The notes below the pieces were generated by a model. It did no database searches and was not told the origin of the DNA. It worked only from the letters and a program-made list of their open reading frames with translations. This document shows, in pieces, positions 2,438-24,129 of a stretch of DNA of 25,299 nt (positions are counted from its first letter, which is position 1; every line of letters starts with the position of its first letter). This DNA comes from a virus. The stretch lies in IMG/VR virus record IMGVR_UViG_3300024346_005995, positions 1 through 25,299 of that record; one strand, 5' to 3'. The translations under genes were made by a program, and so were the position numbers.

Positions 2438-3127
2438 TTATTTTCCTAAGAATGAGTTTAATTTATTCATTAAGTTTAGTGTCTTATTATCAGTGATAGT
2501 AGGTTCTTTCTTATCTATAGACTCAGCATATTTCTCTCTATCCCCCTCGTCTTGGAATAGATATGCCCCTGGTGTAGATGGTGATGATACTAAATCAAAA
2601 CAAACCATTTCGAAGTCATCTTGTACTTCATTATATTCTCCTGATTTCTTTAACGACCCAACACCTCTTGATGAGATACCTAATGTGACTCCGTGTAATA
2701 ATAAATTCGCTGCGATATCACCCATACACGTAATCTGTCCTGTAGACCTAAATGCTTCAGATGTTAATAATTCAACTTTACCCATTAATATTTTACCGTC
2801 CCACCAACACTCAGTAATACGGTGTGATGTTCTCTCTAAATCGACTAAAGAAGTTTCAGGGTGATTTAATTCACCTAACGCTCTTCCTTGTTCTATTAAT
2901 GTTTTATAGTTGTCGGTTTCTCTCTTTAGGATTCTTTCACCGTAGATTCTACCGTTTTTGTTTGGGGTATCGTATTTTTGAAGTACCGCATACAACACAA
3001 AGTTATCTTTATTCATCTCCTTCATCTCTCTGATAACTGATTTGTTTTCAGAAGGTTTTATATGACCAGCGTCATATTCTATAAGGATACCTCTTGTGTT
3101 CGTATCGTTTTGGTTCAATATTTTCAT
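2438..3127 (-). CDS. 21: Prohead maturation serine protease, T4 gp21-like
   Basis: Protease that cleaves scaffold and capsid propeptides inside the prohead. 229 residues, close to the T4 size (212). Visible family marks are NGRIYGERIL (about 59-68), GELNHPE with the likely catalytic His (about 85-91), ISSRGVGS with the likely catalytic Ser (about 152-159) and FDLVSSPSTPGAYLF (about 177-191). These fit the herpesvirus-assemblin-like fold of peptidase family U9/S80. It is followed by the scaffold gene with about 100 bp between. A TATTTATA element lies 22 nt upstream, and a terminator just beyond it (3195-3220) closes the preceding gene, so this gene probably starts its own transcript. Likely autocatalytic, as in T4; that part is family knowledge. 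Confidence 0.92.
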   Translation of the reverse strand: MKILNQNDTNTRGILIEYDAGHIKPSENKSVIREMKEMNKDNFVLYAVLQKYDTPNKNGRIYGERILKRETDNYKTLIEQGRALGELNHPETSLVDLERTSHRITECWWDGKILMGKVELLTSEAFRSTGQITCMGDIAANLLLHGVTLGISSRGVGSLKKSGEYNEVQDDFEMVCFDLVSSPSTPGAYLFQDEGDREKYAESIDKKEPTITDNKTLNLMNKLNSFLGK

Positions 3128-3194: not shown

Positions 3195-3220
3195 AAAAAA
3201 AGAGAGGACTAACCTCTCTT
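3195..3220 (-). terminator. Rho-independent terminator overlapping the end of the 145-aa gene
   Basis: On the minus strand, 8-bp stem AAGAGAGG/CCTCTCTT with a 5-nt loop followed by a T-run. The stem includes the last codons (Lys-Arg-Gly) of the upstream gene, and its TAG stop sits in the loop (3211-3209). Confidence 0.85.
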
Positions 3221-3646
3221 ACTTTTATAGTACGTAAAACTTGAATAGGGGATAACCGAATTATCGATTATATTCTCTATTATGTGATTAACATCTGTTT
3301 TAAAATCTACGTCTCTAATCTCATAACTACCATTTGTAAACAGTGTTATTTCACAGTTCATAAAAGACTTCTTACCTTTTTCTAATCCACTCGCCCTAAT
3401 ATCTAAATCAACAATAAACCTATCCTTTTTAAATTTATCTGTAATATTTAGAGTTTCTGTTAATTTACCTGATATCTTACGTTTTAAACCACCTATTACG
3501 GTATTCCAATTAGTTACGTTATTTGTTGGTTCAATCCAACAGGTTATTTTAGAGTATATTGATTTTAAGTTTTTTGAGTCTACAGTTCCGTACCCACATT
3601 TAAATTGTTCATTAACATTTAAATTTATGAATTTACCTGATTTCAT
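3209..3646 (-). CDS. Unknown protein, 145 aa, in head module
   Basis: Not recognised. A soluble protein of mixed composition, with a basic middle (GLKRKISGKLTETLNITDKF, about 49-68), alternating hydrophobic segments suggesting beta-strands, and a Tyr/Lys-rich C-terminus (SSFTYYKSKRG). No membrane segment or signal peptide. It lies between the 241-aa gene and the prohead protease, where T4 carries the small prohead-core genes 67 and 68, but I see no sequence resemblance to them. Its own transcript probably begins at a TATCTTTG box about 100 nt upstream (3749-3756) and ends at the terminator built into its 3' end. This promoter type differs from that of the adjacent structural genes, so a non-virion role is possible. 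Confidence 0.8.
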   Translation of the reverse strand: MKSGKFINLNVNEQFKCGYGTVDSKNLKSIYSKITCWIEPTNNVTNWNTVIGGLKRKISGKLTETLNITDKFKKDRFIVDLDIRASGLEKGKKSFMNCEITLFTNGSYEIRDVDFKTDVNHIIENIIDNSVIPYSSFTYYKSKRG

Positions 3647-3738
3647 ATATTATCATAATCTTTTCTTTTTATTGTCCCTGATAATATTATAGTAAAAATA
3701 ACCATACATGTCAAAAAACTTACTTTTTTTTAGAAGTA

Positions 3739-3771
3739 TTGTATAATACAAAGATATTCCGTATATTTATA
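3739..3771 (+). promoter_or_regulatory. Probable bS21 promoter
   Basis: TTG (3739-3741), 20-bp spacer, then TATATTTA (3762-3769), one base from the Bacteroidota -7 consensus TAnnTTTG with the usual spacing. The same stretch contains TATTTATA (3764-3771), the putative late element, 25 nt before the bS21 ATG. It may therefore belong to either class or serve both. Confidence 0.5.
3749..3756 (-). promoter_or_regulatory. Host-like -7 box (TATCTTTG) for the 145-aa gene
   Basis: Perfect TAnnTTTG on the minus strand, about 93 nt upstream of the 145-aa gene. No TTG is seen at the expected -33 distance. It overlaps the divergent bS21 promoter, so the two could interfere. Confidence 0.4.
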
Positions 3772-3796: not shown

Positions 3797-3991
3797 ATGT
3801 TAATTATAAAATTAGGAAAAAATGAATCTATCGAAAGAGCCTTGAAGAGATACAAAAGGAAAGTTCGTAACGTTAAACAACAACAACAAATAAGAGAAAA
3901 TAGATATCACGAAAAACCTTCGTCTATTAAAAGAAAACAAAAATCTAAGGCGGTATACCTACAAGCTAAAAGTGATAGAGAAGAACTTTAA
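3797..3991 (+). CDS. rpsU: Phage-encoded ribosomal protein bS21
   Basis: Small-subunit ribosomal protein near the 16S rRNA 3' end that takes part in translation initiation. 64 residues, the usual length. The N-terminal signature NESIERALKRYKRKV and the EKPS turn followed by a basic helix (KRKQKSKAVY) are clear. Aligned without gaps to my recollection of the Flavobacterium protein, Tyr54 (in KAVYLQ) falls at the position of the tyrosine implicated in holding the 16S anti-Shine-Dalgarno tail in Bacteroidota ribosomes. The central segment (RENRYHEKPS) looks more like other bacterial bS21s. It is the only rightward gene in the head module; its stop overlaps the stop of the convergent 241-aa gene by 3 nt. 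Phage bS21 genes are known from several large phages and are thought to replace the host copy. Confidence 0.93.
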   Translation: MLIIKLGKNESIERALKRYKRKVRNVKQQQQIRENRYHEKPSSIKRKQKSKAVYLQAKSDREEL

Positions 3992-4713
3992 GATAAACTT
4001 TCTTTAAGTTGTTCTAATTTTACTAAAGATAATAAATCAGAACCACTCTCGTCTACTTTCTTTTCAACTTCTAAAACAATCTCTTTTAATTCAACATTAG
4101 ACTTCAATTCATTAATTGACTCTCTAAGTTGTGTTTTTAATTCAGTAACTATATCATTAACTTCTGACGTATTCATGTCAGTATATTTCTTAAACTTTTC
4201 TTTCTCAGATTCAGTCATTACCGAAAATTTGTCATTAAATTTAGTTACCAATAAAGAAGATAATATTGATTGTGTTACAGGATTAGTAGACTCCTTAATC
4301 TCTTTAGGTTCGGTTAAAATACCAACTAAAGTATTCTTTGACTCGATACGTTCCACTAATGTTTCGTAACCGTGATTGTGAACTAAAATATCTAAATGTT
4401 TTGTAGTTTCATTCTCATTACATTTTACTTGACCAACCAACGTAGAAAGTTTCTTAACCCCTGAAACATAATCTTTAGTCATTAAAGATTTGATTTCATT
4501 TACTGCCTCAATAATAAACTCTGAAGCAATTTCTTTACTAGAAATGTGTCTAGTTTCGAAATCTGTATAAATGTTAAAAACCTTATTAAGAGATTTGTTT
4601 TCATTTAATACTGTCATTATAGAATTAAACGTTTTCTTAAACGATTCTTTCTTTGTATATTCTTCGGCTAAGCGAGTATAAACCTGTTGTCTTAATTTTC
4701 CTAAAGCAATCAT
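3988..4713 (-). CDS. Unknown helical protein, 241 aa, between portal and protease
   Basis: Not recognised. Predominantly helical and charged, rich in Lys, Glu, Ser and Thr; the C-terminal ~75 residues (from SEKEKFKKYT to VKLEQLKESLS) look like coiled coil. No membrane segment or catalytic motif. It follows the portal gene, in the place of T4 core genes 67/68, so a role in the prohead core or portal assembly is a reasonable guess from position alone. A TATTTATT element lies 17 nt upstream. It shares TTAA at its 3' end with the convergent bS21 gene (both stops within 3988-3991), so the two transcripts overlap antisense unless one terminates early; no hairpin is seen there. Confidence 0.82.
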   Translation of the reverse strand: MIALGKLRQQVYTRLAEEYTKKESFKKTFNSIMTVLNENKSLNKVFNIYTDFETRHISSKEIASEFIIEAVNEIKSLMTKDYVSGVKKLSTLVGQVKCNENETTKHLDILVHNHGYETLVERIESKNTLVGILTEPKEIKESTNPVTQSILSSLLVTKFNDKFSVMTESEKEKFKKYTDMNTSEVNDIVTELKTQLRESINELKSNVELKEIVLEVEKKVDESGSDLLSLVKLEQLKESLS

Positions 4714-4756: not shown

Positions 4757-6589
4757 TTACTCTCCTAAGATATTTTTAAGCTTTTTTTCTAATTCAGTAG
4801 TCACTTCTTGACCCTTCATTAGATTTAATTTTTTAGGGACACCAAAGTCCTTAGTTTCTAATATAATGGATAAATCTTCTTCGGTATTACTCTCACCTAA
4901 TTCACCACCATCAGTGTCCATTGGGATATCGTCAACAGGTTCTTCCGTTGCTGGAGAATCCATACCTGTGTCTCCCATACCTCCCATATCAGAACCATCA
5001 TTCACATCACCTGTAGGTTCAGGAGCATCAGGGTCTCCGTATAATTCATCTATATTTGTAAAGACACCTGTTTTCTTTATCACTTCTGATGTCGTTTCCA
5101 ATTCATTAGCAATCGCCTTTTCAAAACGTTGTTGTTGTAAATCAAGTTTAACCTCTTCATCAGACATACCTAAAATTGTTTTCTTAGCCCATGTGTGTGA
5201 TACTGCAGATATACCATTTCCTGGGTCACTTACCGCATCTTTATAAAGTAATATCTTTTCTTTCCAAGCCTCAACCTTAAGTAAGTCAGACTGTGTTGAA
5301 GGATTTGTTAAACCTAATGTGAAGTTATTAAGTTCATCCTCCATCCCTAACATATATAAATGGATTACGGCAATTTTATTTAACTCTTGAATCATTGCCT
5401 TTTGAATACGATTAATAGTTCTTGCGAAACGTATATCTTGTAATGATAAGTTTTTACCGTCAGCGACCACATCTTCAAACCCTAAAAATGCTTTAGGTAT
5501 ACGAAGTGCCGCTAATAATTTCTTTTGTATGTATTCGATATCAGCAATCTCAGAAAGGTTTTGTGCTCCTGGTAGTGTATCGATTGGGTTAGGTGCGTTA
5601 GGGTCACGTACAGGAATAAAGTAATCTTGGTCAACCGCCATTTGATTATACCTTTGGTCCACTTGCCCATTTGCAGGGTCTACTACATTATCTCTTTTAA
5701 ACTTGTTCGCAATTCGTTGTACATATTGGTCGACATCTTTATCGTCCATATTACCCACAAATACTTTGAATACCCTTCTTTCAGGTGCTCTTGAAGTTCT
5801 ATAGATTAACATCGCATCCTCAGCTAAAACTAATTGTTTCCAAATACGTCTTGCTTTTTCTAACATAGAAGTACCATAAGGTAATTTTCTATCGTCACCC
5901 AATAATCTAAAGTGTGCTATTTCCCACACATTAAACTCCATATCTTTTTCTTTCCAAACATATTTGGTTTCTCTTGATTCTGAAGAATTACTTTGATTAC
6001 CACTTGACCCGTGAACATTCATTCCTTTCTCTATTCTTTCAACTTCCATATTCGGTAATTGGTTACAACCAATAATACCTTTCTTTGGGTCTAATTTAAG
6101 ATAAAGAAAATTATCACCATACTTACATGTGTTTCTAGTCCACATAGGTAAGTTAGTGTCAATGTCTAATATGTTGTTAAATAAATCACCTAATATTGAT
6201 TTAATTCTTTTACTCTCTGAATAAACATTTAAGATATACCCTTGTTCTGACAATGTCGTTGCTTCTTCAGCATATATATCTAAAGCCGCTGATATCTCAG
6301 GGGTAAACTCCATAGACTCATAATCATAATACGCAGCCATCCTATTTGGTTCATGAAAAACCGCCTGTTGGTATAACTGACTATCAATTTTAGTCCATTG
6401 GTTATTTAAGAACAACGCTTGTTGTGCTTGTAGTTTTTCCTGTTCATACTCCGCACTATCCGTAGTCCTTAACAATTCTTTCTTATCAAAATTGTATGTA
6501 GGTGCTGGGTCACTAACAGGACTTGCTCCTGTAGTTCCTCCAAATAGTTTACCTAATCTTTGATAAATTGTATAATTTTGCTCTGCCAT
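4757..6589 (-). CDS. 20: Portal vertex protein, T4 gp20-like
   Basis: Forms the dodecameric portal at one vertex, through which the terminase pumps DNA and to which the neck attaches; it also nucleates prohead assembly. 610 residues against 524 in T4. Recognisable segments are AAYYDYESMEFTPEISAALD with the following IYAEEATT (about 84-112), KYGDNFLYLKLDPKKGIIG (about 156-174), the VWEIAHFRLLGDDRKLPYGT region (about 221-240), and ALRIPKAFLGFED with LSLQDIRFARTINRIQKAM (about 365-400), the portal crown/stem region of this family. The C-terminal ~110 residues are an acidic Gly/Asp/Pro-rich extension. It lies 55 bp downstream of the terminase; T4 genes 18 and 19 (tail sheath and tube), which separate 17 and 20 in T4, are not here. 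Confidence 0.95.
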   Translation of the reverse strand: MAEQNYTIYQRLGKLFGGTTGASPVSDPAPTYNFDKKELLRTTDSAEYEQEKLQAQQALFLNNQWTKIDSQLYQQAVFHEPNRMAAYYDYESMEFTPEISAALDIYAEEATTLSEQGYILNVYSESKRIKSILGDLFNNILDIDTNLPMWTRNTCKYGDNFLYLKLDPKKGIIGCNQLPNMEVERIEKGMNVHGSSGNQSNSSESRETKYVWKEKDMEFNVWEIAHFRLLGDDRKLPYGTSMLEKARRIWKQLVLAEDAMLIYRTSRAPERRVFKVFVGNMDDKDVDQYVQRIANKFKRDNVVDPANGQVDQRYNQMAVDQDYFIPVRDPNAPNPIDTLPGAQNLSEIADIEYIQKKLLAALRIPKAFLGFEDVVADGKNLSLQDIRFARTINRIQKAMIQELNKIAVIHLYMLGMEDELNNFTLGLTNPSTQSDLLKVEAWKEKILLYKDAVSDPGNGISAVSHTWAKKTILGMSDEEVKLDLQQQRFEKAIANELETTSEVIKKTGVFTNIDELYGDPDAPEPTGDVNDGSDMGGMGDTGMDSPATEEPVDDIPMDTDGGELGESNTEEDLSIILETKDFGVPKKLNLMKGQEVTTELEKKLKNILGE

Positions 6590-6644: not shown

Positions 6645-8423
6645 TTAATTATTCCTTCTTTTACCACCCATTAACCATGAAAAATCCGAATAGTCTTGTC
6701 TACCGGCAACACGGTTTGGATTTGATGGGTTATTTGGTGCAATACCTCTAAACGGGTCCAGTGACCCTAATTGTCTTCTATTACTGTTCTGTTGTGGTTG
6801 AGGTGTGTTAGGACTATCTGTAACTGTCCATCCCTCTAATAATGCCTTTGTTGATGCTTCTGACTTTTTTAATAGTGAAAATGAGAATTCACCAACATAT
6901 ACACACATCGCCATAGCCATGATTAAATCATCGTGATGACCTTTCATATGGTCTGCCTTCCCATTAATATAGACAAAGGTATTCATTTCATTTACTAATC
7001 TGGTCGATTTTACAACAAAATTATGTCTTAATGATTCCTCAAAGGCAGCAACTATTTGTGTTCGTTTACTGTTAAATGATAAACCTGGCATTTTTTCATG
7101 TGCCTTAGGATTCCAAGACCATTTATCAAACGCATTGATACCATCAACATATAAATCTTTATAACCTAATTCTTGTAGTTTTCTTACCGTTGCAACACCC
7201 ATACCTCCTGTGATATCCACAACTGTAAATGCTGAATACATACTACCCCATTTGAAACAAACATCCGCTAATTCGTCGGGGGGTATCTTACCTAAGTACT
7301 CAGCGACTTGTTCTCTGGTATCAAAATCGACTATACAAATAGACGATGAATCTTCGGAATCTCCTCGAGACACATCAACACCCATAATATACCTGTGGTC
7401 TTTAATCGGTTCATTCCAAACCCACATTTGACCCGCCATATACTTTTCTTTAGGTTCTTCTAACATTCGTTCCCTTATCATTTCAATGGTGTCAGGAGGT
7501 ATTACGTTATCTCCCGAACCTAAGAAATTGTTCTCTAACTCTTGTGATATCTTACGTCTATCATATTTTAATTTTTTAGACATTTGTTCAAACCAACTAG
7601 AATATGGTTTATAACCTTTCTTAATTAATTTAGAAAACTCATCTTGATTATTTTCTATTAATACCACCTCATCGTCGTTATATTTATCCCTATTTAGAAT
7701 GTAGTCAACAATGTCTTTAGTTTTTATCCACTTTAAGTCTTTGGTGAATCTAGGGTCTTTATACCATACCATTTCGGTAATCTTAAAATCGTTTAACCCT
7801 TGTTGGCTCTGAGCGTATATCTCATAATAAATTTTATCAAACCCGTTAGGTGTTGATACTACGATTACTTTACCACCCGTAGATAGAGACGCCATACATG
7901 CCGCCCAAAAATCGTTACCGGCATCAATATATGCTGCTTCATCAAAAACCAATACCGTTGGTGTGTACCCCCTTAGTGCATCCATAGAGGTTGCAACCGC
8001 CTTAACCTCACAACCATTATTCAAACGGAAGTGTGACTGAGAATCTTTATCTTTAGAAAATCCTACGTTTATCCATTCGGGCCATTGGTTCAAAAACCCT
8101 CTAACCTTATTCGCCATTTCTTTGGCGGTATCAAGTTTGTTCGCAATAATTAGAACTTTCTCAGGTTGTTTAGGGGACGCAAATTGTAATTTTTTACTAA
8201 CCCAAGCCGAGGTTGCCGTAGAAACACCCGCCTGTCTATACTTAAGGGCTAAGTTTTCATTATACGTATCGTAATCTTTTATTAGTTGTTCTTGGTCAGG
8301 GAATAATTCAAAGGGGACATACTTAGACTGAGTATTATCATACGTCTCTAAATAAGTCTTCAATGCGTAAGGAGTGTCCTTTAAACATTTAGTATATTCT
8401 GTTATTAATTCCTGTTTAGTCAT
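6645..8423 (-). CDS. 17: Terminase large subunit (packaging ATPase/nuclease), T4 gp17-like
   Basis: Motor that drives DNA into the prohead and cuts the concatemer. 592 residues (T4: 610). ATPase domain: Walker A-type loop RQAGVST (63-69), Walker B VLVFDEA (157-163) and motif III VVSTPNG (188-194). RNase H-like nuclease domain: MGVDVSRGD with Asp350, VVDITGG with Asp403 and HHDDL with Asp498/499 as the metal-binding acidic set. The Asn/Gln/Pro-rich tail (after about 540) is probably flexible. It begins 3 nt after the stop of the glycosyltransferase-like gene, so the two are transcribed together. No small terminase (gp16) could be identified among the neighbours. Confidence 0.97.
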   Translation of the reverse strand: MTKQELITEYTKCLKDTPYALKTYLETYDNTQSKYVPFELFPDQEQLIKDYDTYNENLALKYRQAGVSTATSAWVSKKLQFASPKQPEKVLIIANKLDTAKEMANKVRGFLNQWPEWINVGFSKDKDSQSHFRLNNGCEVKAVATSMDALRGYTPTVLVFDEAAYIDAGNDFWAACMASLSTGGKVIVVSTPNGFDKIYYEIYAQSQQGLNDFKITEMVWYKDPRFTKDLKWIKTKDIVDYILNRDKYNDDEVVLIENNQDEFSKLIKKGYKPYSSWFEQMSKKLKYDRRKISQELENNFLGSGDNVIPPDTIEMIRERMLEEPKEKYMAGQMWVWNEPIKDHRYIMGVDVSRGDSEDSSSICIVDFDTREQVAEYLGKIPPDELADVCFKWGSMYSAFTVVDITGGMGVATVRKLQELGYKDLYVDGINAFDKWSWNPKAHEKMPGLSFNSKRTQIVAAFEESLRHNFVVKSTRLVNEMNTFVYINGKADHMKGHHDDLIMAMAMCVYVGEFSFSLLKKSEASTKALLEGWTVTDSPNTPQPQQNSNRRQLGSLDPFRGIAPNNPSNPNRVAGRQDYSDFSWLMGGKRRNN

Positions 8424-14498: not shown

Positions 14499-16358
14499 TT
14501 AAACTTCTTCGTAATCGACATCTTGTGTCCCCTCATCAGGTCCACCACTATCACCTGTTTCACCTGTTTGATAGAGTCTCGTGGTTATTTGATTCCACAC
14601 ACCCTCAAGTTCAGATTTCTTACTCGTGATAAGTTCTAAGTTTTCTGAAGTCTTAGCATCATTAAGTTCTCCTATTAACTTCTCTAAGTTTGTTTTTTCA
14701 TCTTCAGAGATTTTGTCACCTAACTCAGACATTTGTTTCTCTGTTGTAAACACATACGAATCGGCTTCATTAATAAGTTTAATCTTTTCTTCCTTCTTTT
14801 TATCCTCTTCTCTATTTTGTTCTGCCTCGTCTTTCATCTTTTGGATGTCTGCGTCAGATAAACCTGTTGAGGATTCAATCTTAATCTTTTGTTCTTTACC
14901 GGTTCCTTTATCTTTAGCCGAAACATTTAAAATACCATTGGCGTCAATATCAAAAGTTACTTCTACCTGTGGGATACCTCTTGGTGCCATTGGAATACTT
15001 TCTAATTTGAATTTACCTAATGTTCTGTTATTTGTGGCCATTGGTCTTTCACCTTGTAAAACGTGTATTTCTACTACCGTTTGATTGTCGATTGCCGTTG
15101 AGAACGTCTGTGACTTATTAGTGGGGATTGTTGTATTTGATTCAATCAATTTTGTCATAACACCACCCATTGTTTCAATACCTAATGAAAGTGGAGTAAC
15201 ATCCAATAATAATACATCTGTAACGTCTCCTGATAATACACCTCCCTGAATCGATGCACCCATTGCAACAACCTCATCAGGGTTTACCCCTTTATTTGGT
15301 TCTTTACCGAATAACTTCTTAACCGCATCCTGTACTGCTGGTATACGAGTTGAACCTCCTACTAAGATTACCTCATCAATCTCACCAATTGTTAGGTTCG
15401 CATCTGACAATGCTTTTTCACAAGGTTTGATTGAACGGTCAACTAAATTAGATGTTAATCTATCAAAGTCTGCTCTGGTTAATGTAGTCTCAAAGTGAAT
15501 TGGCCCACTAGCACCTGCAGAAATATAAGGTAAACTAATAGAGGTTTGATTTGCCGTTGATAATTCCACCTTAGCTTTCTCAGCCGCCTCTCTAACTCTT
15601 TGAATCGCCATTGGGTCTTCAGAAATATCTACGTTTGATTGAATCTCGATTAGAGACATAAAGTGGTCGATAATTGCTTCATCGAAGTTATCCCCACCTA
15701 ATTGTGTATCACCGTTAGTAGATAATACCTCAAAGATACCATCACCTAATTCTAAAATAGATACATCAAATGTACCACCACCTAAGTCAAAGACAACGAC
15801 CTTCATGTCTTTATCTTTCTTATCCAATCCATATGCTAACGCAGCTGCCGTTGGTTCGTTAATTATACGTAAGACCTTTAAACCTGCGATTTCACCAGCT
15901 TCTTTAGTTGCTTGACGTTGTGAATCGTTAAAATAAGCTGGTACCGTAATAACCGCTTCAGTAACAGACTCACCTAAAAACGATTCGGCGCTTTTACGAA
16001 TGTTTTGTAAGACCATTGCTGAAATCTCTTGAGGTACGTAGTCTCTACCATTTGCGGTTATAACAACAGAGTCGTTATTTCCCTTTTTAATTTTATATGC
16101 GACGTTTTTATGGTCGTCATTTAACTCACTATATCTCTGACCGATAAATCTTTTAGCCGAGTATATGGTGTTTAAAGGATTTGTAACGGAAACTCTTTTT
16201 GCGGTGTTTCCTACTTTAATATCGCCATCCTTAAACGATACAATTGAAGGGGTAGTCCTACCTCCCTCATTATTTACAATAACTTTAGGTTCTCCACCCT
16301 CCATAAAAGAGATACATGAGTTTGTTGTTCCTAAGTCAATACCAATTACTTTTCCCAT
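14499..16358 (-). CDS. dnaK: Molecular chaperone DnaK (Hsp70), phage-encoded
   Basis: ATP-dependent chaperone, full length at 619 residues (bacterial DnaK about 640). ATPase domain: phosphate loop IDLGTTNS (7-14), [11 protein letters not shown] (190-200), [10 protein letters not shown] (331-340); interdomain linker DVLLLDVTP (381-389). The substrate-binding domain and helical lid follow, and the protein ends TQDVDYEEV, the usual acidic C-terminus. It resembles Bacteroidota DnaK strongly, for example [17 protein letters not shown] in the lid, so it was probably taken from a host. No dnaJ or grpE is present in the window, so host co-chaperones would be needed. A host-like promoter precedes it, and it is divergent from clpC across 286 bp. 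All motifs appear intact, so it should be active. Confidence 0.98.
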
Positions 16359-16582: not shown

Positions 16583-16612
16583 TTGTTTTTTAGATAAAAT
16601 GTAGTATATTTG
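16583..16612 (+). promoter_or_regulatory. clpC proximal promoter P2
   Basis: TTG (16583-16585), 19-bp spacer, TATATTTG (16605-16612), a textbook Bacteroidota promoter with the clpC ATG 32 nt downstream. Confidence 0.75.
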
Positions 16613-16644
16613 TAGAGTCAAAAACAAAAAAAAAGTTTTTATAT

Positions 16645-18675
16645 ATGGATACAGAATTCGAAGAACAAGGAGGAGGTAGAAGACTTCCAATGAAGAAAAG
16701 TAAAAACGATTCGAGAACACCCGTGTTGGATAATTTCTCTCGTGATTTAATTAAATTAGCAGAGCAAGGAAAACTTGACCCTGTAATTGGTAGAGAGAAA
16801 GAGATTAATAGAATCGCACAGATTTTATCTCGTCGTAAAAAGAATAACCCGATTGTTATTGGTGAACCTGGTTCAGGTAAAACCGCAATCGTGGAAGGGT
16901 TAGCAATAAAAATACACCAAGGAGACTGTCCTAAGAACTTAGCGGATAAACGTATAGTTTCATTAGACTTAACTTCTGTTGTTGCGGGTACTAAATACCG
17001 TGGACAGTTTGAGGAAAGACTTAAGGCAATTTTAGAAGAGTTGGTTGATAATGATAATGTAGTAGTCTTTATTGATGAGATACATACCATCATTGGAACT
17101 GGTAACTCTTCAGGTTCATTAGATGCTTCGAACATCATTAAACCAGCACTGTCTCGTGGTGAAATACAATGTATTGGTGCCACTACGTTAGACGAGTATC
17201 GTGAGAATATTGAAAAAGACGGAGCATTAGAAAGACGTTTCCAAAAAGTATTGGTTGAACCTGCGACAACTGAAGAAACAATGATTATCCTTTCTAATAT
17301 CAAATCTAAATACGAGAATCATCATAAGGTTAAGTATAGCGAAGAATCATTAGAGGCTTGTGTTATCTTATCGGACAGATACATTACTGACCGTGAATTA
17401 CCTGACAAGGCTATCGATATCTTAGATGAGGTAGGTGCAAAGGCGCAAATCGATGTTAAATTACCTGAATTTATCGAAGACCTTAAATTACAAGTTGCTG
17501 AGATTAAGAGAAAGAAATTGGATGTGGTTAAGACACAAAACTATGAAATCGCTGCTGAACTAAGAGACCAAGAAAAGAAGTTAATTAATAAGTTAACAAC
17601 TGAGAAAGAGGAGTGGGAACAAAAACAAAATGAAAACAGAACTTTAATTACTGAAGATGATGTTTATAAAATTGTTTCAGATATGACTAATATTCCTGTA
17701 ACTCGTTTAGACAGTGACGAAGCTAAGTCATTACTTAACTTAGAAAACACATTAAAGGCTAACGTCATCGGACAAGACGATGCGGTTACTAAAATTTCTA
17801 AAGCAATTCGTAGAAATCGTGTAGGGATTAAAGAACCTAATAGACCAATCGGTTCTTTTATCTTCTTAGGGTCTACAGGTGTGGGTAAAACTCACTTAGC
17901 TAAAACATTAGCACGTGAAATCTTTGGTGATGAATCAGCAATGATTCGTGTGGATATGTCAGAGTTAATGGAAAAACACTCAGTATCAAGATTAGTAGGG
18001 TCTCCTCCAGGATACGTAGGACACGACGAAGGTGGTCAATTAACCGAACAAGTTAAAAACAAACCTTACTCTGTAATACTTTTCGATGAGATTGAGAAAG
18101 CACATAGAGATGTCTTTAATATCTTACTTCAAGTATTAGATGAGGGTCACTTAACAGATGGTTTAGGTCGTAAGATTAACTTTAAAAATACTTTAATTAT
18201 TATGACTTCTAATGTTGGAGCAAGAAAACTACAAGACTTCGGAACGGGGTTAGGATTTAGTACAGACTCTACAGTTTCACAACACGAAGAACTCACTAAA
18301 GGTGTTATTCAAAAAGCACTAAAGGCAGAATTCTCACCTGAATTCTTAAACCGTTTAGATGATATTGTTGTATTCAAAGCTTTAGAGAAAGAAAACATTG
18401 GTAAAATCGTAAAGATTGAAATGAATAAACTCTCAAAGAGAATTGTAGAAAGAGGTTACAACATTAGTTTTGGACCATCAATCATCGACTTTATCGCAGA
18501 CAAAGGGTTTGATGCCAAATACGGAGCAAGACCAATACGTAGAGCGATTCAGGAATACATTGAAGACTTTATCGCTGAGGAAGTGTTAGGTAAAGGTATT
18601 GTTGAGGGGAAGAGTTACTCCCTTAAAATAAATAAGGATTCTGAAAAAATTTCAGTAACAGAAAAAAAGTCATAA
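16645..18675 (+). CDS. clpC: ClpC-like AAA+ unfoldase lacking the N-domain
   Basis: Class I Clp/Hsp100 ATPase that unfolds proteins and normally feeds them to ClpP. 676 residues; Bacteroidota ClpC is about 850. The protein begins in the Gly-rich linker (EEQGGGRR) that in the host protein follows the N-domain, so the ~150-residue adaptor/substrate-binding N-domain is missing. D1: Walker A GEPGSGKT (73-80), Walker B VVVFIDEIH (139-147), arginine-finger region ERRF (196-199). A short coiled-coil middle domain with a UVR-like segment (NYEIAAELRDQEKKL, 299-313) marks it as ClpC rather than ClpB. D2: Walker A GSTGVGKT (409-416), Walker B VILFDEI (477-483). A Leu-Gly-Phe tripeptide (536-538) sits where ClpP-docking loops lie. 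Two host-like promoters precede it. The upstream sequence holds no remnant of the N-domain. Confidence 0.95.
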   Translation: MDTEFEEQGGGRRLPMKKSKNDSRTPVLDNFSRDLIKLAEQGKLDPVIGREKEINRIAQILSRRKKNNPIVIGEPGSGKTAIVEGLAIKIHQGDCPKNLADKRIVSLDLTSVVAGTKYRGQFEERLKAILEELVDNDNVVVFIDEIHTIIGTGNSSGSLDASNIIKPALSRGEIQCIGATTLDEYRENIEKDGALERRFQKVLVEPATTEETMIILSNIKSKYENHHKVKYSEESLEACVILSDRYITDRELPDKAIDILDEVGAKAQIDVKLPEFIEDLKLQVAEIKRKKLDVVKTQNYEIAAELRDQEKKLINKLTTEKEEWEQKQNENRTLITEDDVYKIVSDMTNIPVTRLDSDEAKSLLNLENTLKANVIGQDDAVTKISKAIRRNRVGIKEPNRPIGSFIFLGSTGVGKTHLAKTLAREIFGDESAMIRVDMSELMEKHSVSRLVGSPPGYVGHDEGGQLTEQVKNKPYSVILFDEIEKAHRDVFNILLQVLDEGHLTDGLGRKINFKNTLIIMTSNVGARKLQDFGTGLGFSTDSTVSQHEELTKGVIQKALKAEFSPEFLNRLDDIVVFKALEKENIGKIVKIEMNKLSKRIVERGYNISFGPSIIDFIADKGFDAKYGARPIRRAIQEYIEDFIAEEVLGKGIVEGKSYSLKINKDSEKISVTEKKS

Positions 18676-18679
18676 TCTT

Positions 18680-18711
18680 TTTGGTTACTTAAATAATAAA
18701 GAGTATATTTG
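18680..18711 (+). promoter_or_regulatory. Promoter of the M20 peptidase gene
   Basis: TTTG (18680-18683), 20-bp spacer, TATATTTG (18704-18711), in the 54-bp gap after clpC. The -7 region with flanks (AGTATATTTGTA) is identical to that of clpC P2, hinting at coordinated expression. Confidence 0.75.
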
Positions 18712-18729
18712 TACTCAAATTAATAAACG

Positions 18730-19779
18730 ATGAACGAACAAAGGTTAAATAGGTTTAAAAAACTACTTTCAGTACCAAGTAAGTCAAGAAATGAGTCTCA
18801 GATGATTAACTTCATCTGTACTCAACTTGACAATATGATTGACAGTGGAGTTAATCTCGATTACTACTTAGACGAACTTAGTAACATTTATGTGACTAAA
18901 GGAGAGTCTGAATCGTACCCGTGTTTTATCTCACACACTGACACGGTACACGAAATAGACTCCATCAACGTAGTTGAAGGGATTAAAACTAAACCTAACA
19001 CTTTCGGTAAGTCATTTGGTGACGAAGAATTCGATGTTCTTTACGCAGTTAACGACCAAGGAAATCCTACGGGTATTGGTGGTGACGACAAATCAGGGAT
19101 TTTTATTTGTTTAGAAATCCTTCGTAACGTCCAAGAGTGTAAATTGGCTTTCTTTGTTTCTGAAGAAATTGGTTGTATAGGGTCATCAAACGCAGATGTC
19201 GAGTTTTTTAACGATGTAACATTTGTTTGTGAGTATGACGCACCTGGAGACCACTTAATTACCGAGATTTGTTCGGGAGTTCGTTTGTATGAAGTAAACG
19301 GTGAATTTATCAACACAATGAAACCAATCATCGAAAATTCCTTTGGTAACCCGATGATTGAACAATCACATCCTTTTACCGACGTGATGCAACTTAAAAA
19401 CAAGTTACCTGTGTCGTGTATCAATATCTCATGTGGATATTATAACATGCACAGTGTGAATGAATTTATTGCACTGGTAGACGTAGAAAAAGCGATTGAC
19501 TGTGGTATTAGTATGACTATGTATGGTTTACAGGATAAATACTATTATGAAAATGACACACCTAAATATTTTAACGATTCTAAAGAGGATGTTTACGAAT
19601 CTGAAAACTCTAAATGGTTAAGTGAAGGTGTTGTAATATTTGATGAGGATTCATCGGGAATTACGATTGAGGAATACGAAACAGGAAACTGTGTCTACCT
19701 AACAGAGAAAGAATGTAAGAAATTATATGAAACTCTAAAGTCGAAATTCACACCCTCGTCACAGTACCGTTTATTTTAA
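18730..19779 (+). CDS. M20-family metallopeptidase, lidless, PepT-like
   Basis: Di-zinc peptidase, probably cleaving short peptides in the cytoplasm. 349 residues. The complete M20 active-site set is visible in order: HTD (His69, Asp71 as the helper acid), GIGGDDKSG (Asp119 or Asp120 bridging the metals), SEEIG (Glu145 general base, Glu146 ligand), EYD (Asp170 ligand) and NMHSVNE (His241 ligand). Only 71 residues separate Asp170 from His241; in PepT the gap is about 180 because it holds the dimerisation/lid domain, so that domain is absent here. About 100 residues after His241 (YYYENDTPKYF onward) form a C-terminal extension I do not recognise. It directly follows clpC with a matching promoter, suggesting it trims peptides released by Clp-dependent degradation; this is inference. 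Confidence 0.85.
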   Translation: MNEQRLNRFKKLLSVPSKSRNESQMINFICTQLDNMIDSGVNLDYYLDELSNIYVTKGESESYPCFISHTDTVHEIDSINVVEGIKTKPNTFGKSFGDEEFDVLYAVNDQGNPTGIGGDDKSGIFICLEILRNVQECKLAFFVSEEIGCIGSSNADVEFFNDVTFVCEYDAPGDHLITEICSGVRLYEVNGEFINTMKPIIENSFGNPMIEQSHPFTDVMQLKNKLPVSCINISCGYYNMHSVNEFIALVDVEKAIDCGISMTMYGLQDKYYYENDTPKYFNDSKEDVYESENSKWLSEGVVIFDEDSSGITIEEYETGNCVYLTEKECKKLYETLKSKFTPSSQYRLF

Positions 19780-22855: not shown

Positions 22856-23635
22856 ATGGTAAATTTTGATTTATTGAACGAAGAAATAAGTCCCTTCGAT
22901 GAAAGAGACATACAAGTTGAAGGATTACTCAATCCTGATTTACAACTACCTAAAAAAATTGACTACCGAAAAGAACTTCCAGGAGCATGGAATCAAGGTA
23001 TTGATGGTCCGTGTTCCGCATATGCTGCCGCAGCAATGAAACAATGGCAAGAACTTAAAGACTACGGACTAAAAAAAACCCTTTCTAAACATTTCATTTA
23101 TAATCTTAGGTCTAATAAACCACAAAGAGGAATGTACGCACGAAATACGATGCAAATACTACAAAAATATGGGTTACCGTATGATAAGTCATTCAGAAAA
23201 AAATGGAAAGACATTGAAGACATACCTTCTGAGGTATTTAAAGAAGCTTTAAACCACACGATTGTTGGATATGCGAAAGTTAATACGATAGATGGGTTGA
23301 AGAAGTCGTTATATAAAAACGGTCCGTGTTATGCGACATTCCCTGTTTATTCTAACGAACCTGAATTTTGGGTACCCTCGTTTGGAAATAATAGAATTAA
23401 AGGTGGACATGCCGTTTGTATTGTTGGTTATGATAAACACGGTTTTATTATAAGAAATTCGTGGGGATGGGATTGGGCCGATAACGGACATTCCACATAC
23501 TATTACGAGCAATGGGGTTCACATATGGAAATTTGGACAACAATCGATGACACCACTTCTGAGTTAGTCATTCCTTACAAAAGAAAGAGAAAAACAATCA
23601 AAGAATTTTTTAAGAACATTTTTGGTAAAAAATAG
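22856..23635 (+). CDS. Papain-like (C1 family) cysteine protease
   Basis: Cysteine endopeptidase, 259 residues. WNQGIDGPCSAYAAAAM carries oxyanion-hole Gln47 and nucleophile Cys53, six residues apart exactly as Gln19/Cys25 in papain. GGHAVCIVGYD supplies His185, and IIRNSWGWDWADNG supplies Asn201 in the canonical NSWG motif. LPKKIDYRKELPGAWNQG (31-48) matches the start of the mature papain domain, so there is only a ~30-residue N-terminal segment and no full inhibitory propeptide. No signal peptide is seen. The C-terminus is a basic, amphipathic tail (KRKRKTIKEFFKNIFGKK). It carries a TATTTATA-type upstream element rather than a host-like promoter, and lies just before the tRNA cluster. Possible jobs are late cleavage of host proteins or processing of virion proteins; the substrate is unknown. 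Confidence 0.93.
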   Translation: MVNFDLLNEEISPFDERDIQVEGLLNPDLQLPKKIDYRKELPGAWNQGIDGPCSAYAAAAMKQWQELKDYGLKKTLSKHFIYNLRSNKPQRGMYARNTMQILQKYGLPYDKSFRKKWKDIEDIPSEVFKEALNHTIVGYAKVNTIDGLKKSLYKNGPCYATFPVYSNEPEFWVPSFGNNRIKGGHAVCIVGYDKHGFIIRNSWGWDWADNGHSTYYYEQWGSHMEIWTTIDDTTSELVIPYKRKRKTIKEFFKNIFGKK

Positions 23636-23681: not shown

Positions 23682-23754
23682 GCCTCTTTAGCTCAGTTGG
23701 TAGAGCAGCTGATTTGTAATCAGCAGGTCGTCAGTTCAAGTCTGGCAAGAGGCT
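23682..23754 (+). tRNA. tRNA-Thr (anticodon UGU)
   Basis: Cloverleaf by eye: acceptor GCCTCTT/AAGAGGC, D-arm GCTCAGTTGGTAGAGC, anticodon stem GCTGA/TCAGC with loop TTTGTAA (anticodon TGT), T-arm GTCAG-TTCAAGT-CTGGC, discriminator T. The full CCA is not encoded. It decodes ACA, common in this AT-rich genome. Confidence 0.95.
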
Positions 23755-23770
23755 CAATAAAAAGATAATA

Positions 23771-24043: not shown

Positions 24044-24129
<86 letters not shown>

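Follow-up and report, generated by a model that had tools for sequence, protein, structure and literature searches.

The window analysed here is the whole of IMG/VR virus record IMGVR_UViG_3300024346_005995, 25,299 bases long with a G+C content of 33.6%. Within a T4-like head module, whose genes run on the other strand, sits a gene for ribosomal protein bS21, and the features of the locus are as follows.

2438–3127, minus strand: prohead protease (Peptidase_S77) of the gp21 type; PF03420, 81.1 bits; PHROG 207.
3209–3646, minus strand: h3209, a conserved neighbour of 145 aa, divergent from bS21 and kept in 15 aligned loci.
3736–3749, unstranded: palindrome GTATT-N4-AATAC, upstream of the TATTTATA box; in the window it may be a chance occurrence.
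3764–3771, plus strand: late-type box TATTTATA, 33 nt before the bS21 start.
3797–3991, plus strand: phage bS21 (rpsU), 64 aa, ATG to TAA, with Tyr54 and no Shine–Dalgarno (SD) sequence.
3988–4713, minus strand: h3988, an ORF for a hypothetical protein of 241 aa, running towards bS21 and sharing 4 bases with the end of that gene.
4757–6589, minus strand: portal protein of the T4 (gp20) type; PF07230, 272.9 bits; PHROG 213.
6645–8423, minus strand: large terminase subunit of the T4 type; PF03237; PHROG 2.

The bS21 reading frame scored 51.7 bits against the Pfam profile PF01165 (cut-off 27) and 43.5 bits against the NCBIfam profile TIGR00030 (cut-off 28.95), and it matched PHROG 21469, annotated as ‘ribosomal protein S21’. 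Its top match in the PDB by phmmer was the bS21 of Flavobacterium johnsoniae (7jil_z, E = 1.1e-9), to which it aligned over residues 1–61 without gaps and with Tyr54 opposite Tyr54, the difference lying in the middle of the protein, at about residues 24–37. The earlier note on this DNA had claimed a gap-free alignment to the flavobacterial protein in which Tyr54 is kept and the middle differs, and all three points hold against this real flavobacterial sequence. In F. johnsoniae, the nucleotide of the 16S tail on which Tyr54 of bS21 stacks is A1534 (PMC9976891; 7jil). The phage protein resembles this bS21 in its length of 64 aa, its ungapped alignment and its Tyr54, but differs in a more basic C-terminal part and another middle, its identity to the canonical type averages about 42%, and its gene lacks the extended SD. 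A Foldseek search of the bS21 model against the PDB gave weak matches only, all of them to bS21 and none with E < 0.001, which is what a pair of helices lacking a core would be expected to give, and a tblastn search with the window bS21 for the closest named phage gave no meaningful match.

With a portal protein matching PF07230, a protease matching PF03420 and a terminase matching PF03237, the window carries the head module of a T4-like myovirus, and the placement of bS21 inside it was correctly read from the sequence at the outset; bS21 runs opposite to these three genes. Two scans of IMG/VR yielded 43 distinct phage bS21 sequences, 42 of them full-length, and the same head module was found, as far as the contigs extend, in 29 of the full-length loci; these contain h3209, the portal and the terminase, in most cases together with h3988 and the protease, all opposite to bS21. 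The h3209 gene adjoins bS21 throughout this group; the AlphaFold model of its product (pLDDT 88.5, pTM 0.84) had a single strong match by fold, to an uncharacterised myovirus protein, and h3209 is a likely candidate for the gene that corresponds to the published bS21_CN. Homologues of h3988 occur in most relatives at 25–100% identity, and the protein has no PHROG match. No phage-borne gene for bS18, the pocket partner of bS21, was present among 11 related records, several of which are fragments.

Chen et al. (2022; PMC9723584) described 47 freshwater Bacteroidetes myophage genomes with bS21, in clades a–e, in which a reverse-strand bS21 gene lies between two hypothetical genes near those for TerL, portal, protease and capsid. 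In that study, Tyr54 was present in 54 of 61 phage bS21 proteins, the remainder having another aromatic residue, bS21 was highly expressed along with late structural genes, and the phage protein was proposed to substitute into Bacteroidetes ribosomes. The window shares with these phages, as judged from the published description, a bS21 gene opposite TerL, portal and protease and between two conserved hypothetical genes (an order repeated in its relatives), the retention of Tyr54, and the presence of Clp proteins and chaperones alongside bS21; a difference is that the published set is freshwater. The chromosomal bS21 nearest to that of the window are from Flavobacteriaceae, and the relatives of its portal include Flavobacterium phages. 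The window is a further member of these bS21 phages, real and ordinary for its kind. The core idea, Tyr54 and ribosome substitution (PMC9723584), as well as autoregulation (PMC9976891), are already published, and what is added here is the SD contrast, a second host bS21 type and a promoter-like box.

Tyr54 is present in all 29 distinct bS21 proteins of the head-module group, which are kin and do not amount to 29 independent events. In the 13 full-length phage bS21 proteins from other contexts, residue 54 is Tyr in eight, Lys in three, and Phe and Arg in one each; a phage bS21 need not, then, have Tyr54. The phage proteins with Phe, Lys or Arg at this position (loci L193, L220, L232, L240 and L241) all lie outside the head-module context, and anti-SD masking by Tyr54 may be absent from the hosts of these phages. 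On the host side, Tyr54 was found in 18/18 canonical copies from two-copy genomes and in 78/78 copies of the second type described below; these 18 unselected copies were used because the ‘canonical’ comparison group had been chosen by Tyr54 and SD strength, which makes its own 19/19 values circular. A phylum-wide Bacteroidota search gave Arg54 in 27 of 30 loci, a biased draw consisting of the best Pfam scorers. We took the Arg54 loci to lie outside class Bacteroidia; Chlorobia are described in the literature as being without Tyr54.

McNutt et al. (2023; PMC9976891), who also discuss phage bS21, showed that masking of the anti-SD depends on Tyr54 and on the C-terminal part of bS21, and that rpsU controls itself by way of an extended SD, of which it is usually the sole carrier in Flavobacteriales. 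Either Y54A or a C-terminal deletion of bS21 derepresses the SD-dependent rpsU, and the C-terminal deletion reduces initiation on SD-less mRNA. These results support the premise of the earlier note that Tyr54 is tied to masking and that host rpsU is autoregulated.

SD pairing energies were computed against the 16S tail AUCACCUCCUUUCU. The region upstream of the window bS21 pairs at −1.4 kcal/mol, and none of the 22 window starts pairs with the tail at −6 kcal/mol or better. The phage starts are thus free of SD sequences, as had been claimed, although composition-matched shuffles are nearly equal (mean −1.35 kcal/mol for the window upstreams against −1.24 for the shuffles). Because the two means are so close, the A+T richness of the window suffices to account for the absence of SD sequences, and we discarded the idea of a selected trait of phage genes, which is indistinguishable from the effect of composition. 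Across the 42 full-length phage bS21 genes the best value was −4.8 kcal/mol, and none came up to −10. In each of 18 two-copy Flavobacteriaceae genomes, exactly one bS21 gene pairs with the tail, with an energy of about −17.5 to −17.6 kcal/mol, and the other has no SD. The hallmark of an autoregulated rpsU, the extended SD, is therefore absent from the phage gene (−1.4 kcal/mol, compared with about −17.6 for canonical host rpsU), which lacks the feedback signal of its canonical host counterpart.

The chromosomal homologues came from scanning 84,980 species of bacteria and archaea, from which the best 80 genomes were taken; all were Flavobacteriaceae or Bacteroidota MAGs, and two bear the title Algicola, which is also in use for another phylum. 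Among them, the closest bS21 proteins were from Flavobacteriaceae (e.g. Lacinutrix, Psychroserpens and Tamlana), and the genes matched were nearly all of one type without an SD. When 20 of these genomes were searched in full, 18 had at least two bS21 genes, the two-gene genomes combining a canonical copy with an extended SD and a second type with the signature RK(H/V)RN(V/I)(K/Q) at residues 21–27 and no SD. In one family, 44 of 151 genomes had a copy with 70% identity or more to a query of the second type, a cut-off chosen here, and in a phylum-wide sample 191 of the 197 bS21-bearing genomes had a single copy. The gene for the primary sigma factor, rpoD, lies in the flank of 77 of 125 second-type loci, some of which come from the same genome and some of which have short flanks. 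We also observed the second type in a proline-biosynthesis region in two loci (L056 and L099), a tyrosine-recombinase gene adjoining rpsU in two of three canonical loci read, and, next to a cold-shock-like gene in locus L174 (genome G006), a divergent bS21 (MLIIKIKPGERIDGVLKRYRNKVRKTKQ...) that is the third of its genome and could be phage-derived. Bacteroidota are not named in the list of taxa with extra bS21 copies in PMC9976891, and we found no description of the paired canonical and second bS21 in Flavobacteriaceae in the open literature searched, which does not prove its absence; the two-gene arrangement is possibly undescribed.

The window protein is closer to the second host type than to the canonical type (mean identities of 51.5 and 42.2%, respectively). 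Like the second type, it has Tyr54, no SD and RNVK at residues 24–27, although in the wider phage set K27 alone is common to both; the second type differs in being chromosomal and often beside rpoD. As the second type was delimited by its RNVK-type signature, the comparison shows that such a type exists but not that it is uniform. The divergent middle of the window bS21 is not phage-specific, because the second host type also has RNVK. Descent of the phage protein from the second host type was considered in view of the higher identity and not adopted: in trees built on 64 columns, too few to place the origin of phage bS21, the phage, canonical and second-type proteins stay apart, and there is weak evidence against the window's group forming a clade with the second type alone (AU test, p = 0.03). 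In addition, the head-module phage proteins carry a charge of +13.5, compared with +10.3 and +9.8 for the host types, and most of the excess falls in residues 43–64 (+5.0 against +1.6 and +2.1); a more basic phage bS21 would suit tighter binding to rRNA.

The earlier note had mentioned a late-type element with bS21, and this was borne out: of the 22 window starts, 10 have the TATTTATA box in the 60 nt that precede them, compared with 0.84 in shuffles and none in the antisense orientation. The related motif TATTTAT lies upstream of 27 of the 43 distinct phage bS21 genes, nearly all in the head-module group. TATTTATA is the T4 late consensus TATAAATA read as its reverse complement; the consensus itself was rejected as a sense-strand signal, as it precedes 0/22 starts and only the complementary form is enriched. 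Late expression of the window bS21 appears likely, because the head position and its own TATTTATA box both fit. In relatives (L015–L054, L217 and L235–L247), a palindromic GTCAA-N3/4-TTGA(C) lies about 35–48 nt upstream of bS21, and in each of four scanned loci of 10–12 kb it was found before bS21 only; the palindrome before bS21 is a possible operator.

The motif TATATTTG lies upstream (16585–16645 and 18670–18730) of the plus-strand genes for a Clp ATPase and an M20/M42-like peptidase, and resembles the Bacteroidota vegetative −7 element TAnnTTTG, which suggests that these two genes, in contrast to those of the head, may be transcribed early from promoters of the host type. The Clp ATPase (16645–18675, plus strand) is ClpA/ClpC-like, without an N-terminal domain, and has a GLGF loop at the position of the ClpP-binding loop; ClpP is encoded by three large relatives (L309–L311). 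A phage protease that removes host bS21 has been suggested (PMC9976891), and the window ATPase with the relatives' ClpP fits this suggestion but proves nothing. The window also encodes a full-length DnaK (Hsp70; 14499–16358, minus strand; 836 bits) with no TATTTATA box upstream, a papain-family (C1) cysteine protease (22856–23635, plus strand) with such a box upstream, and tRNA-Thr(TGT) (23682–23755) and tRNA-Ser(TGA) (24044–24129).

The reading that we favour, to which we give roughly an even chance, is that a feedback-blind phage bS21 keeps the ribosomes replete and host rpsU off. A T4-like flavobacterial phage would express a bS21 of its own from a TATTTATA-type promoter that it also supplies, probably late in infection, and on the host 30S subunit the protein would occupy the place of bS21, where its Tyr54 would hold the 3′ tail of the 16S rRNA masked. 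Ribosomes would remain replete and efficient on SD-less mRNAs, those of the phage included, and canonical host rpsU, which depends on a free anti-SD, would be repressed, so that host bS21 would not be resupplied from it; the phage gene, having no SD, would be blind to this feedback. The model draws on homology, Tyr54, the SD contrast, the conserved locus and the box enrichment found here, and takes masking and autoregulation from the F. johnsoniae publications.

Two claims of the earlier note have to be revised. Masking alone cannot favour phage mRNAs, as had been proposed, because masking is already the state of replete host ribosomes and the mRNAs of Flavobacteriales are SD-less too. The predicted repression of host genes that use SD sites stands for rpsU but not in the plural, since rpsU is the only such gene in most Flavobacteriales (PMC9976891). 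Several further points weigh against the feedback model: the SD-less host mRNAs leave no selectivity for phage mRNA; the SD-less second bS21 of many likely hosts would bypass the feedback without a phage, and in such hosts the advantage from a phage bS21 would be smaller; Tyr54 could have been kept simply because any bS21 that fits such a ribosome needs it; and the only published incorporation test, as far as the citation in PMC9723584 goes, concerns the bS21 of Pelagibacter phage HTVC008M, which enters Escherichia coli ribosomes (Mizuno et al. 2019; PMC6375957). That protein is phage-borne like the one in the window, a likeness taken from its description, but its host belongs to another phylum.

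A bolder form of the feedback model, which we regard as tentative and rather doubtful, is that the phage protein hijacks the feedback itself: the cell would read ‘bS21 replete’, canonical rpsU would stay off, and the ribosomes would be progressively refilled with the phage protein, the second host bS21 being either the same trick or a way round it.

The specialised ribosome proposed by Chen et al. (2022), in which changed N-terminal and middle parts of bS21, and not masking, recruit phage mRNAs, seems to us unlikely. The middle is indeed the region of greatest difference between phage and canonical host bS21, and published mapping places divergent residues on the mRNA path (PMC9723584), but the RNVK middle is found in the second host bS21 as well and so is not confined to phages, and we saw no leader motif shared by phage mRNAs beyond the promoter-like box. 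Equally improbable, in our judgement, is a role in maintenance only, whereby loosely bound bS21 is lost, host resupply halts and the phage copy sustains late translation without any regulatory takeover. The poor initiation of bS21-deficient F. johnsoniae ribosomes on SD-less mRNA (PMC9976891) is in line with such a role, and the DnaK and Clp ATPase of the window would suit general support of translation and proteostasis; it leaves the missing SD unexplained, a weak objection, since the window is rich in A+T and the second host copy has no SD either. A function outside the ribosome, for example RNA or DNA binding in the virion or in packaging, is very improbable: the conserved place between head genes and the possibility of encapsidation raised in PMC9723584 speak for it, but a virion role would not need the Tyr54 and bS21 core that are kept, and the Pelagibacter phage homologue, as cited there, enters ribosomes.

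For the bacteria that carry the second, SD-less bS21, autoregulation of rpsU may be bypassed. For the phages, the feedback reading, if true, would mean that translation is taken over by satisfying a ribosomal feedback sensor rather than by host shut-off, and the question posed by bS21 as the commonest phage ribosomal protein would become testable in one genetic system, as rpsU reporters exist in F. johnsoniae.
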